64,000 nt of DNA from Paludibacteraceae bacterium. Lineage in GTDB: Bacteria; Bacteroidota; Bacteroidia; Bacteroidales; Paludibacteraceae. The translations under genes and the position numbers were made by a program. Shown one piece after another: positions 52,421 through 62,973 of this stretch (within the stretch, counting starts at the first letter, position 1; every line of letters begins with the position of its first letter). The notes beneath the pieces were generated by a model. The model did no database searches. It was not told where the DNA came from and worked only from the letters and a program-made list of their open reading frames with translations. The stretch is from contig JAGCWA010000012.1 in the NCBI GenBank assembly GCA_017962085.1, forward strand, positions 1 to 64,000, in the 5' to 3' direction.

Positions 52421-53299
52421 ATGAATAAGAAAGAAATAGTAAAAAACCTCGCAAAAATCACCGACCAGGAAAAATTCATGAAGACGGAGGGCGGCAAGCA
52501 ACCGTCTATTCCTGTCATCGAGAAAATCATAGAGACAATCCAACAAATCATCTTCCCGGGTTATTTCGGTGCGGAGATCCGTAGCACGGAAAGCCGCCAC
52601 TACCACGTGGGCGTGAGCATAGAGAACTTGGAGAAATACCTGAAGGAACAGATAAGCCTCAGTTTCAAGAGTTTCAAAGGGGAGGAAATCCAAGAGGACA
52701 AGAGCGACGAAATCGTTTTGCAGTTCATCGACACCATCCCTGAGATAAAAAGGGTTCTGTACACGGACATCGAAGCGATGGCGAAAGCTGACCCGGCCGT
52801 CACCGCCTACGGAGAGATCATCTTCTGCTACCCGATCGTACAGGTGATGCTCCACTACCGCGTGGCACACGCCCTCCTGAAACTAGGTGTGCCTGTACTG
52901 CCCCGCATCATCACGGAGTTGGCGCACTCCAAGACGGGTATCGACATCCACCCGGGCGCACAGATCGGTGAATACTTCGCCATCGACCACGGCACAGGTG
53001 TCGTCATCGGCGAGACCAGCATCATCGGCAACCACGTCACCCTCTACCAAGGTGTTACGCTCGGCGCCAAGAAATTCGCCAAGAACGAGCAGGGTGTCCT
53101 GCTCAACACGCCAAGGCACCCTATCATTGAGGATAATGTCACTATCTACTCCAACTCCTCTATCCTAGGACGCATCACCATCGGACACGACACCATCGTG
53201 GGCGGTAACATCTGGGTCACCCAGAGCGTCAGACCATACTCGAAGATCGTTCAGCAAAGGGCGGTCGAGGAGATGTTCGCCGACGGTGCAGGAATATAA
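52421..53299 (+). CDS. cysE: Serine O-acetyltransferase
   Basis: The 292-residue enzyme transfers acetyl from acetyl-CoA to serine, giving O-acetylserine, the substrate of CysK. The helical N-terminal half (1-165) is followed by a left-handed beta-helix of hexapeptide repeats. It contains HSKTGIDIHPGAQIGEYFAIDHGTG, where Asp/His in IDHGTG and His in IDIHPG are the active-site pair, and then ETSIIGNHVTLYQGVTLGAKK. The longer N terminus is the Bacteroidetes/plant-type SAT-domain layout. It leads the rightward cysE-regulator-pdxS-pdxT-cysK-nif-like array, placing O-acetylserine supply next to sulfide fixation. Confidence 0.95.
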   Translation: MNKKEIVKNLAKITDQEKFMKTEGGKQPSIPVIEKIIETIQQIIFPGYFGAEIRSTESRHYHVGVSIENLEKYLKEQISLSFKSFKGEEIQEDKSDEIVLQFIDTIPEIKRVLYTDIEAMAKADPAVTAYGEIIFCYPIVQVMLHYRVAHALLKLGVPVLPRIITELAHSKTGIDIHPGAQIGEYFAIDHGTGVVIGETSIIGNHVTLYQGVTLGAKKFAKNEQGVLLNTPRHPIIEDNVTIYSNSSILGRITIGHDTIVGGNIWVTQSVRPYSKIVQQRAVEEMFADGAGI

Positions 53300-53323
53300 C
53301 CCAACGGAGAGTCCCCTCTGCCT

Positions 53324-54415
53324 ATGAAGAGCGACACCCCTATCCTAAGCATCACCGGCTCCGACGGTTTTGGCGAGACGGGCATACAGTCCGACATCCA
53401 AACCATCTCGGAACTGGGGGGCCACCCGCTCTCCATCATCACCTCCGTATCCGTAGAAAAGGGCGATGGCTCCAGAAGGATATTCGACCTGCCCGTAGAG
53501 ATCGTCACGGAACAGGCCCAATCCATCATCGAGAAGGCGAAACCCAAGGCTATCAAGATCGGGCTGATACGAGACGATCAGGCCATCCGACGGCTGAGGA
53601 ATGAAGTCATCGCCTGCAAGACCATCGTCTGCGACCCTGGTATCATCTCCTCCGACGGCACCCCCCTCGTGCGCAAGGAAACCCTCGAAGCGATAAAAAA
53701 ACACCTGATACCCATTTCCACCCTGCTCATCATCAAATGCGAGGAGGCCAAGCTCCTACTAGGCAAGGAGATCTTCACAGACGATGACATGGTGGCGACA
53801 GCCGAAGCCTTTTCCGACATGGGGGCGGAGGCCATCATGCTCCGTGGCGGGCACCAGACCGAGGGACGCATCACCACCCTGCTCTACCACAAGGGAAGGA
53901 AGCGTTTCTTCTCTTCCCACAACATGGACGGCTGGCAGAAGCATGGAGTCAGCGGGGCGCTCTCCTCCGCCATCGCTGTGAGGCTGGCGTTGGGCGACGA
54001 TATCCCTACCGCCATCCGCAACGCGCACGACTACATCCACAGCCAAGTGGTCTACGCCGTGCCCTCCCCCGACAAAGCCTACCGGAACGCGGACCTGTAC
54101 AACCAACTCATGTCACTCATCTCCGAGCATTACCGTCACGCACACGACGTGGCCTACTATGCGGACCAGCTATCCATCACCCCAAGGTACCTTTCCCAAG
54201 TGACCAATAAGGCAGTGGGCAAAACGCCTAAGCAGGTGATAGACAACTACCTGATACAAGAATCCATCCAACTATTGGAGACCTCCCGCCTCACCATCCA
54301 AGAGGTGGCGGACAAGTTAGGATTCACCTCACAAGCCATGTTCTGCAAATTCTTCCGCCACTACGAAAAAGTATCCCCTTCCCAGTTCAGGAAATCCTCC
54401 TCTTTGTATTTTTAA
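53324..54415 (+). CDS. Degenerate HMP-kinase (ThiD)-like domain fused to AraC-type DNA-binding domain
   Basis: The 363-residue protein joins a ribokinase-fold ThiD/PdxK-like domain (1-250: SITGSDGFGETGIQSDIQT, VCDPGIISSDG, IIKCEEAKLLLG) to a C-terminal AraC helix-turn-helix pair (about 265-358: DVAYYADQLSITPRYLSQVT and LTIQEVADKLGFTSQAMFCK). In ThiD/PdxK the anion-hole loop reads GTGC or GTGD with the catalytic Cys/Asp; here the equivalent is GVSG (208-211), so the kinase site looks dead. I infer a sensor of pyridoxal, PLP or a related pyrimidine that controls the adjacent PLP synthase genes, replacing the usual MocR-type PdxR. It lies 24 bp after cysE. Direct repeats at 54425-54458 are a plausible binding site. 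Confidence 0.85.
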   Translation: MKSDTPILSITGSDGFGETGIQSDIQTISELGGHPLSIITSVSVEKGDGSRRIFDLPVEIVTEQAQSIIEKAKPKAIKIGLIRDDQAIRRLRNEVIACKTIVCDPGIISSDGTPLVRKETLEAIKKHLIPISTLLIIKCEEAKLLLGKEIFTDDDMVATAEAFSDMGAEAIMLRGGHQTEGRITTLLYHKGRKRFFSSHNMDGWQKHGVSGALSSAIAVRLALGDDIPTAIRNAHDYIHSQVVYAVPSPDKAYRNADLYNQLMSLISEHYRHAHDVAYYADQLSITPRYLSQVTNKAVGKTPKQVIDNYLIQESIQLLETSRLTIQEVADKLGFTSQAMFCKFFRHYEKVSPSQFRKSSSLYF

Positions 54416-61587: not shown

Positions 61588-61623
61588 TTCCTCTAAGTTT
61601 TTAACATCAAAAGAATCAATCAA

Positions 61624-62973
61624 ATGAGCGAAATACAAAAGAAGAAACCTTCGGTAATATCCGATGTCCGATATGCTTGCGCGGTGGGTGCGACCAACAC
61701 CGTAGTGGCCATCAAAGGTGCAGTGCCAATCGCCAATTGTAGCCCTGGCTGTCAGCTGAAGACTACCGCCATGTTGACCTTCGAGAACGGTTTTCAAGGT
61801 AGTATCGCGGCTGGAGGCGGAAACATGCCAAGCTCCAACGCTACAGAGAATGATGTGGTCTTCGGTGGTATAAAGACCCTCGACAATCTTATCAAATCAA
61901 CGCTGAAGATCTACGACGGAGACCTCTTCGTGGTCCTGACGGGTTGTACGGGTGAGCTGATCGGCGACAACGTGCCTGACCTCGTGGGCAAGTACCAGAA
62001 GGCGGGCTACCCTATCGTCTACGCCAACACGGCCGGTTTCAAGGGCAATAATATCTTCGGTCACGAAACGGTGGTGGATGCCATCATCGACCAATACGTA
62101 GGGAACTACGAAGGAGAGAAGAAGAAAGGACTCGTCAACCTCTGGTTTGAAGTGCCATACTACAACCAGAACTGGCGAGGAGACTACCAGGAGCTCGCAC
62201 GTATCTTGCGTGGCGCAGGCTTGGAAGTGAACGTGTTGTTCGGTCCTGAGAACCCAGGCGTGGAGGCTTGGAAACGCATTCCTCAGGCGCAATTCAACCT
62301 GGTGGTTTCACCATGGGTGGGCGTCAAGAACGCGGAGCATCTCCAGAAGAAGTACAACCAACCCTACCTGCACATCCCTGAGATCCCTGTCGGCGAGGAG
62401 GCTACGGCTAAGTTCATCCGTCAGGTGGTGGAGTTCGCAGGCATCGACAAGAAGCAGTCCGAGGAGTTCATCAAGCAAGAGGCGGATATCTATTACTACT
62501 ACCTCGAACACTTCTCCGAGTTCTTCGCGGAATATTGGTACGGTATGCCAAGCGAGTTTGTCGTGACGGCGGACGCATCCTACGCATTGGCCTACTCGAA
62601 GTTCCTGGCGGACCAGATCGGCCTGATCCCGAAACAGGTGATCATCACCGACAAGACACCAGAGAAGTTCCGCCCCGCCATTTCGGAGTACTTCAAGAAC
62701 AATATCTCCGAGGGAGTGAGCATCGATGTCGTCTTCGAAGAGGATGGCTATGAGGTGGAGAAACTGATCGAGAGCGTCGAGTTCACGTCAGGCAAGCCAT
62801 TGATTCTCGGCACCTCTTGGGAACTCACCCTCGCCAACAAGAAGAACGCCTTGTTCTTTGAGATCTCGACGCCTTCGTCCGAGACGCTCATCGTCAACCG
62901 TTCCCACATCGGCTATAAGGGTGCGCTGCAATTCCTCGAAAGGATCTATAGCGCATCTGTTGGAGGAAAATAA
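61624..62973 (+). CDS. NifK-like beta subunit of a nitrogenase-like reductase
   Basis: The 449-residue protein is a component 1 beta-type subunit without the long N-terminal arm of NifK (523 residues in Azotobacter). P-cluster-type cysteines are Cys19 (RYACAVGA), Cys43 (ANCSPGC; Cys39 is nearby) and Cys108 (LTGCTGELIGDN). The segment NDVVFGGIKTLDNLI and the GFKGN motif match the fold. It should form the alpha2beta2 complex with the preceding subunit (36-bp gap) and share its electron-relay cluster at the interface. It ends the operon, followed by a terminator. Confidence 0.9.
   Translation: MSEIQKKKPSVISDVRYACAVGATNTVVAIKGAVPIANCSPGCQLKTTAMLTFENGFQGSIAAGGGNMPSSNATENDVVFGGIKTLDNLIKSTLKIYDGDLFVVLTGCTGELIGDNVPDLVGKYQKAGYPIVYANTAGFKGNNIFGHETVVDAIIDQYVGNYEGEKKKGLVNLWFEVPYYNQNWRGDYQELARILRGAGLEVNVLFGPENPGVEAWKRIPQAQFNLVVSPWVGVKNAEHLQKKYNQPYLHIPEIPVGEEATAKFIRQVVEFAGIDKKQSEEFIKQEADIYYYYLEHFSEFFAEYWYGMPSEFVVTADASYALAYSKFLADQIGLIPKQVIITDKTPEKFRPAISEYFKNNISEGVSIDVVFEEDGYEVEKLIESVEFTSGKPLILGTSWELTLANKKNALFFEISTPSSETLIVNRSHIGYKGALQFLERIYSASVGGK

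Follow-up and report, generated by a model that had tools for sequence, protein, structure and literature searches.

A probable methylthio-alkane reductase-type enzyme and a putative sister reductase in the sulfur gene neighbourhood of a Paludibacteraceae bacterium

The DNA analysed here, called the window in the following, comprises bases 1-64000 of the 99252-base contig JAGCWA010000012.1 (assembly GCA_017962085.1) from a gut-type Paludibacteraceae bacterium whose genome is 96.96% complete. On the + strand it carries a group of nitrogenase-like genes (nifB, nifX, nifH, a second nifX, nifD1 and nifK1) that follows genes for the synthesis of cysteine and pyridoxal 5'-phosphate (PLP), and together these genes occupy positions 52421-62973. 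A second nifDK-like pair, nifD2K2, is located further downstream on the same contig. On the basis of sequence comparisons we consider it likely that NifD1K1 is a carbon-sulfur reductase of the methylthio-alkane reductase (Mar) type which feeds cysteine and methionine synthesis, and that NifD2K2 is a second reductase with a different substrate.

Results

The catalytic alpha subunit NifD1 (60025-61587; PF00148, E-value 2e-75) finds its best match in the PDB in Rhodospirillum rubrum MarD (chain 9fmg_A; 55% identity, 608 bits), the best other protein reaching 139 bits, and the beta subunit NifK1 (61624-62973; PF00148, 2.6e-60) scores 487 bits against MarK and 67 bits against the next protein. The title of PDB entry 9FMG names a methylthio-alkane reductase complex. 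A tree of D-type proteins was built from 46 rows hand-chosen from 310 matches, with supports given as bootstrap/SH-aLRT (Shimodaira-Hasegawa-like approximate likelihood ratio test). In this tree the NifD and NifE rows are split from all group IV rows at 100/100, and NifD1 falls within a MarD clade of 19 rows, R. rubrum MarD included, at 100/100. The nif side is represented by eight NifD/NifE-type rows, one of them an alternative NifD by our own labelling, and named VnfD, AnfD, CfbD, BchY, Nfa or Endomicrobium proavitum rows are not part of the tree. It was rebuilt from an earlier one of 71 rows after removal of K-type rows, near-duplicates and three rows from locus L231, which were meant as BchN, had very long branches and were at least partly in wrong frames. 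Scores against hidden Markov models were 176 bits for NifE, 57 for BchN and 44 for CfbD, the tree itself holding no CfbD, BchY or usable BchN rows. Within the MarD clade, NifD1 is part of a 15-row sub-clade (100/100) with proteins from Fibrobacter, Ruminococcus and Clostridium, and R. rubrum MarD stands outside. Clostridium chromiireducens and Clostridium sp. LS each possess one Mar-group D protein inside this sub-clade and one outside it, so that paralogues exist, perhaps with different substrates.

The residues of NifD1 point in the same direction. Their roles were taken from the Mar structure paper (PMC12552129), and positions were read off the alignment. Cys71, Cys96 and Cys163, identified by motif, are taken as P-cluster ligands, Cys275 and His434 occupy the positions of the [Fe8S9C] ligands (Cys270 and His429 in R. 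rubrum), and Cys78, Gln79, His199, Trp200, Phe204 and His380 reproduce the Mar pocket in full. The comparison across relatives grouped rows by score, was restricted to D rows of 440-620 residues (which removed, among others, L190, a member of the NifD2 clade with 436 residues), retained closely related rows, and counted some NifE/NifN-type rows in the nif group. In R. rubrum numbering, the three D-side cysteines, Gln74, His194, Trp195, Phe199, Cys270, His375 and His429 are present in 91/91 Mar-group rows and Cys73 in 90 of them; Trp195, His375 and His429 each occur in 0/45 nif-group rows. Three K-side cysteines, likewise taken as P-cluster ligands, are conserved in all 103 K rows including NifK1. 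It is these residues from which the metal sites of NifD1K1 are predicted. A structure prediction for NifD1 from 12 sequences reached a mean predicted local distance difference test score (pLDDT) of 66.4; a PDB search with the model ranks 9FMG first, and with a root-mean-square deviation of 14.8 the model was too poor to be used for pocket geometry.

A search of the host genome with PF00148 returned only four matches, which are the two NifDK-like pairs, and no NifEN-type pair. In Segatella baroniae B14 (which we take to be the former Prevotella bryantii B14) the two PF00148 matches at E <= 1e-10 are D1 and K1, so a scaffold pair is apparently not needed. NifD1K1 is thus very probably not a nitrogenase. 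The original prediction had assigned the cluster to the Mar-type class and had proposed a phylogeny of the catalytic component as a check; with NifD1 grouping with MarD and outside NifD and NifE, a complete set of Mar residues, and the lack of a NifEN-type pair among the PF00148 matches of the genome, this assignment is well supported.

The accessory proteins resemble those of nitrogenase systems. The NifB/MarB-like radical S-adenosylmethionine protein (57325-58242; TIGR01290, 1.5e-76) reaches 257.9 bits for its core, under the cut-off of 343.65. It contains the motifs HPC, CNIGCRFC, RPG and CNRCRADA, which we regard as hallmarks of NifB, and would make the [Fe8S9C] precursor cluster. A NifB-like partner, as in Mar, is therefore indicated by the motifs and the TIGR01290 match, R. 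rubrum MarB itself standing outside the comparison. The protein does not have a NifX domain of its own; this domain, matching the C-terminal domain of long NifB proteins, is the product of the next gene (58235-58600; PF02579, 4.3e-17), a NifX-like small cluster carrier overlapping nifB by 8 bases. A second NifX-like protein (59546-60016; PF02579, 6.6e-14) carries an insert rich in Cys, Gly and Asn, the length of which varies among 13 aligned relatives and is shorter in those from Fibrobacter. Between the two NifX-like genes lies nifH (58645-59493), encoding the Fe protein, the ATP-driven electron donor. It scores 467.7 bits at a cut-off of 394.35, carries the P-loop and cluster-cysteine motifs, is the single NifH found in the whole genome, and resembles the nitrogenase iron protein 1cp2 (486 bits) more than the MarH chain 9fmg_D (292 bits). 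The system deviates from the characterised enzyme mainly in this pairing of a canonical NifH with predicted Mar-type catalytic subunits.

NifD2 (contig positions 79189-80655) and NifK2 (80655-81953), both matching PF00148, are encoded about 18 kb downstream of NifD1K1. The original prediction that no further nif gene accompanies the cluster is therefore right for the window and wrong for the genome. NifD2 yields 307 bits with MarD (next 115) and NifK2 368 bits with MarK (next 85). In the 46-row tree NifD2 belongs to a clade of eight rows (100/99) inside group IV which, together with one more row, is sister to the group containing the Mar clade. Nine D2-type rows, two of which are the same protein, all keep the cysteines, Gln74, Trp195, Phe199, Cys270, His375 and His429, while His194 is replaced by Ile in all nine and Cys73 by Ser, Gly, Ala or Asn; NifD2 itself, with Ile and Ser at these positions, departs from the Mar pocket pattern. 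The metal sites thus appear to be kept and the pocket changed. A [Clostridium] polysaccharolyticum protein shares 87% identity with NifD2 and has cysK directly upstream of its gene, whereas on the host contig two other genes intervene between CysK and NifD2. In locus L127 (7020-12956) three D2-type genes in tandem and one K2-type gene occur near nifH, nifB, three MetQ-like genes, MetN, MetI and a MetY-like gene below its cut-off.

Two pairs accompanied by one NifH and one NifB in a single region recall the nifDKEN arrangement, and Dos Santos et al. (PMC3464626) suggested scaffolds among such linked pairs. NifD2K2 could accordingly be a NifEN-like scaffold which matures the cofactor of NifD1K1 and is no reductase. 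This is unlikely. D1 (at least 70% identity) occurs without a D2 match in five genomes of the same family (G007, G019, G030, G080 and G093, each at least 90% complete) and D1K1 stands alone in S. baroniae B14, which argues against D2 as a required scaffold. Moreover, both cofactor ligands and Trp195 are conserved in all nine D2-type rows, the D2 clade of the tree does not group with NifE, and D2-clade loci often carry CysK (5/8) or MetQ (4/8), core genes of sulfur metabolism as defined below being present in 7/8.

A link of the reductase to sulfur, as originally proposed, is supported by the wider gene context. No match was found in the host genome for 3'-phosphoadenosine 5'-phosphosulfate (PAPS) reductase (PF01507; 14/14 control genomes match) or sulfite reductase (PF01077; 11/14 control genomes match). 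Gene neighbourhoods were counted in the best 80 of 248 related loci and in 17 true nif loci as controls, 13 of which come from the window's own family and one of which is only 4 kb long. Core cysteine/methionine genes (cysK, cystathionine gamma-lyase (CGL)/MetY-type, cysE or metQ) are present near 37 of the 80 related loci, or 25 of the 43 with a length of at least 15 kb, and near 0/17 nif loci; when Ssu-type transporter genes are added, the numbers rise to 52/80 and 36/43. These counts are not independent because the loci are interrelated and often cut by contig ends, and since most of the query genes came from Bacteroidales, the survey may overlook distant homologues. Among 55 testable related loci, 19 have cysK as the gene immediately preceding nifB on the same strand, and by title these 19 are all Bacteroidota; pdxS was seen near 11/80 loci in three phyla and near 0/17 nif controls. 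The expected linkage to cysK is hence recurrent in Bacteroidota, while that to cysE is limited to 7/80 loci, all Bacteroidales by title. By phylum, core genes accompany 25/32 loci in Bacteroidota, 7/20 in Fibrobacterota, 4/25 in Bacillota, 0/2 in Pseudomonadota and 1/1 in the unplaced locus.

It follows from the same survey that no core cysteine/methionine gene was detected in 21/25 Bacillota and 13/20 Fibrobacterota loci, and one might hold that the enzyme acts on a small non-sulfur or otherwise unassigned substrate with the sulfur genes as bystanders. This is made quite unlikely by the recurrence of sulfur genes at the reductase loci of three phyla, with none at the nif loci, and by the position of cysK directly before nifB, even though the latter is confined to Bacteroidota.

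Every gene that the original prediction had listed for the array was recovered as an open reading frame (ORF) at its position on the + strand. Family-library scans covered 10 of the 11 named genes, with E-values so low that chance matches are excluded, and pdxT was named from sequence. Upstream of the reductase genes lie cysE for serine O-acetyltransferase, which makes O-acetylserine (52421-53299; TIGR01172, 2.6e-45), a gene for a ThiD-like kinase fused to an AraC-type DNA-binding domain (53324-54415; Phos_pyr_kin 1.4e-50, HTH_18 8.3e-19), pdxS for a PLP synthase subunit (54515-55387; SOR_SNZ, 2.8e-108), for which 54515 is the better start codon and the longer ORF begins at 54443, pdxT for the glutaminase subunit of PLP synthase (55384-55950), overlapping pdxS by 4 bases, and cysK1 for cysteine synthase (56244-57188; 445 bits, over cut-off). 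While 293 bases separate cysK from pdxT, the genes cysK-nifB-nifX-nifH-nifX-nifD-nifK are spaced by -8 to 136 bases. This spacing suggests two transcription units, the reductase operon beginning at cysK and cysE-thiD-pdxS-pdxT forming a separate neighbouring operon.

Further genes related to sulfur metabolism, sulfur-carrier types among them, follow between the two reductases; most of those scanned remained below the curated NCBIfam cut-offs and they are therefore designated as types. On the contig these are genes of the cystathionine beta-synthase (CBS)/CysK type (64297-65274), the cystathionine gamma-lyase/synthase type (65333-66490), an LCM-type methyltransferase (66533-67360), and genes of the MoeB/ThiF type (67460-68263) and the DsrE type (68268-68753). 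Beside the latter two, starting at 68815 (contig C47; L025:6816), a TusA/YedF-like protein of 74 residues is encoded (1.8e-12, below cut-off) which is too short for the ORF list. A porin by our reading, which has no Pfam match (69908-71302), genes of the MetQ, MetN and MetI types (71345-73969) and a further CysK (76146-77132) precede NifD2K2, and a PatB-like gene and one more CysK-like gene lie beyond it on the same contig. MetN, MetI, PatB and the last CysK were named from sequence or from blast matches to each other.

A search with Rfam at the gathering threshold found no riboswitch in the window, the downstream contig (L025, L026) or 17 Bacillota loci; from those 17 loci one tRNA was returned in the first seven and none in the further ten. 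Near positions 2978-3411 of loci L051, L052 and L061, an Rrf2-type regulator (by sequence) is situated beside cysK-/MetY-type genes that are divergent from the reductase operon, and we would guess that it is CymR-like in role. In many Fibrobacter loci (L075-L094) nifDK is followed by a porin-like gene (by eye, with no Pfam match), an NMT1-type binding protein, an ATPase of the ATP-binding cassette (ABC) type and a permease, with a LysR-type regulator close by.

NifD1 has matches at 1e-20 or better in 56 of 250 genomes of the family, a number that includes true nif genes, and D1 is present in 11/16 genomes of the genus, counting the host genome. D1 proteins are 96-97% identical in other genera and 80-82% in Fibrobacter, which fits horizontal transfer. 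In a scan of 395 genomes of the phylum NifD2 itself was found in the host genome only and is thus rare in this sample; the weak matches beyond the host (26-30% identity, 21 genomes) all belong to one family (f19), presumably Chlorobi, whose genome G568 supplied rows for the tree. A ruminant stomach chamber is named in the titles of 25 of the 80 loci. PF00148 places number 28 in Clostridium sp. LS (G648, loci L188-L196), 12 in C. chromiireducens and 9 in C. polysaccharolyticum. Several D-type rows outside the Nif, Mar and D2 clades have altered residues at MarD positions 195 and 429 and represent group IV proteins with no assigned function.

Discussion

In the mechanism that we propose, NifB would build the [Fe8S9C] cluster and the NifX-like proteins would carry it to NifD1K1, where it would be inserted without a NifEN scaffold and held by Cys275 and His434. 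Electrons would flow from NifH via the P-cluster to the cofactor at the expense of ATP, and the cofactor would cleave R-S-CH3, a small thioether, to give methanethiol together with a hydrocarbon, or would release sulfide from a thiol. The freed thiol or sulfide could then be used by MetY for methionine or by CysK for cysteine synthesis, and the downstream enzymes of the CBS and CGL types may supply cysteine with sulfur drawn from the methionine branch. NifD2K2, with the same fold and presumably the same metal sites, would be served by the same NifH and NifB and act on a different substrate, perhaps imported by the nearby MetNIQ-type transporter, with its product passing to the nearby CysK.

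The original prediction envisaged that the product is trapped by CysK with O-acetylserine from CysE and PLP from PdxST, parts of the reading that are no more than plausible. Capture of methanethiol by MetY into methionine, followed by the CBS/CGL-type enzymes, appears at least as likely, because a MetY (586 bits) is encoded on another contig of the host genome and MetY genes over the cut-off are found near Mar-type genes of some relatives, namely near R. rubrum-like MarD in G038 (L128) and Clostridium sp. LS (L196) and near D1 in L199, L051 and L100.

Several findings weigh against a Mar-type enzyme in sulfur acquisition. The Fe protein is of the canonical type and not of the MarH type, the linkage to sulfur genes is uneven across phyla, with several Ruminococcus loci showing no core gene, and the Rfam search gave no riboswitch in the regions covered. 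Rumen fluid, in addition, usually contains sulfide, so that it is not evident why a costly route of scavenging would be needed.

A more far-reaching, and doubtful, possibility is that the contig encodes a two-enzyme desulfurisation line with shared NifH and NifB. NifD1K1 would turn a methyl thioether such as dimethyl sulfide into methane or another hydrocarbon and methanethiol, and NifD2K2, as a separate catalytic clade that keeps the [Fe8S9C] ligands while its pocket is reshaped (His194 to Ile, Cys73 to a small residue), would cut the next carbon-sulfur bond in methanethiol, S-methylcysteine or a methionine-like compound imported via MetNIQ, yielding sulfide or cysteine for the nearby CysK. 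If true, such a line would supply the rumen with methane or other hydrocarbons independently of methanogens.

Since N2 fixation has been reported for some group IV enzymes, the pair might alternatively be a nitrogenase from an unusual group that makes ammonia for the cell. A canonical NifH is present, as are NifB and NifX, an AmtB gene is found at 45405-46793, and a paper on Heliophilum (PMC9147875) describes a nitrogenase of Endomicrobium proavitum whose Fe protein groups with MarH as well as a proposal that the divergent NflDK of Heliophilum fixes N2. We nevertheless regard this as very improbable. In the 46-row tree, which has no Nfa or E. proavitum rows, NifD1 groups with MarD and apart from the NifD and NifE rows, and its pocket follows the Mar pattern; the R. 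rubrum Mar enzyme, which carries these residues too, is stated to lack the ability to reduce N2 (PMC12552129). The nearly complete host genome yielded no NifEN-type pair, and AmtB lies some 10 kb ahead of nifB with further genes in the interval. It is hardly credible, despite Ssu-type transporter genes near some relatives, that the enzyme reduces isethionate (a sulfonate) in the manner of IsrBHDK, which is described as a group IV sulfur-assimilation enzyme in various phyla including intestinal bacteria (PMC11423573), for according to that source IsrD keeps one of three P-cluster cysteines and IsrB is unlike NifB, whereas all three cysteines and the NifB motifs are kept here, and its product sulfite would be a dead end with no sulfite reductase found in the host genome. 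As sulfite is probably not usable by the host, a thiol or sulfide is the likelier product.

Should a Mar-type function of NifD1K1 prove correct, nif-like genes of unassigned function in cultured rumen bacteria become a testable carbon-sulfur reductase; carriers are S. baroniae B14, Ruminococcus flavefaciens and [C.] polysaccharolyticum, and also Fibrobacter genomes. An active enzyme would link rumen sulfur nutrition to the formation of methane, ethylene or ethane without methanogens. Because the NifH scores above the NCBIfam nifH cut-off in a genome in which no nitrogenase was found, surveys of nifH in ruminants can overcount N2 fixers. The sister clade of NifD2K2 offers a natural series for the question of which pocket residues set the substrate of a nitrogenase-type cofactor.

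Compared with known systems, the enzyme shares its fold, P-cluster ligands and Fe protein with Mo-nitrogenase NifHDK and differs from it in the cofactor pocket residues, the position of the second cofactor ligand and NifEN. Isr of Rhodobacter capsulatus (PMC11423573) is likewise nitrogenase-like, of group IV and devoted to sulfur assimilation, and differs in P-cluster ligands, radical SAM partner and product fate. The closest relative is MarBHDK of R. rubrum (PDB 9FMG, 9D9U), with which the D/K family, metal ligands, first-shell pocket residues, a NifB-like partner and, near some relatives, MetY-type genes are held in common. In contrast to R. rubrum Mar, the host has a canonical Fe protein and separate NifX-like genes, its NifD1 belongs to a separate sub-clade, and CysK/CBS/CGL-type neighbours and a sister reductase are present on the same contig.

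The genes as such were on record by 2015. 'NifE-like/NifN-like' genes of P. bryantii B14 and Fibrobacter succinogenes are listed as uncharacterised in two studies (Inoue 2015, PMC4356463; Dos Santos 2012, PMC3464626), the former noting that the nif-like genes of P. bryantii B14 do not have the nitrogenase His442 and leaving their function open. Among the literature matches listed, in a search that subscription papers largely fell outside, neither an assignment of these genes to Mar nor the canonical NifH partner, the sulfur neighbourhood or the sister reductase was found in print. With 95% identity between NifD of S. baroniae B14 and NifD1, the 'NifE-like/NifN-like' genes are very probably the same as those of NifD1K1. 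The histidine ligand of Mar sits in another loop than that of nitrogenase, so that earlier work missed it, as stated in the structure paper (PMC12552129). In the P. bryantii B14 genes the Mar-type histidine is present in this other loop, and they are here assigned to Mar.

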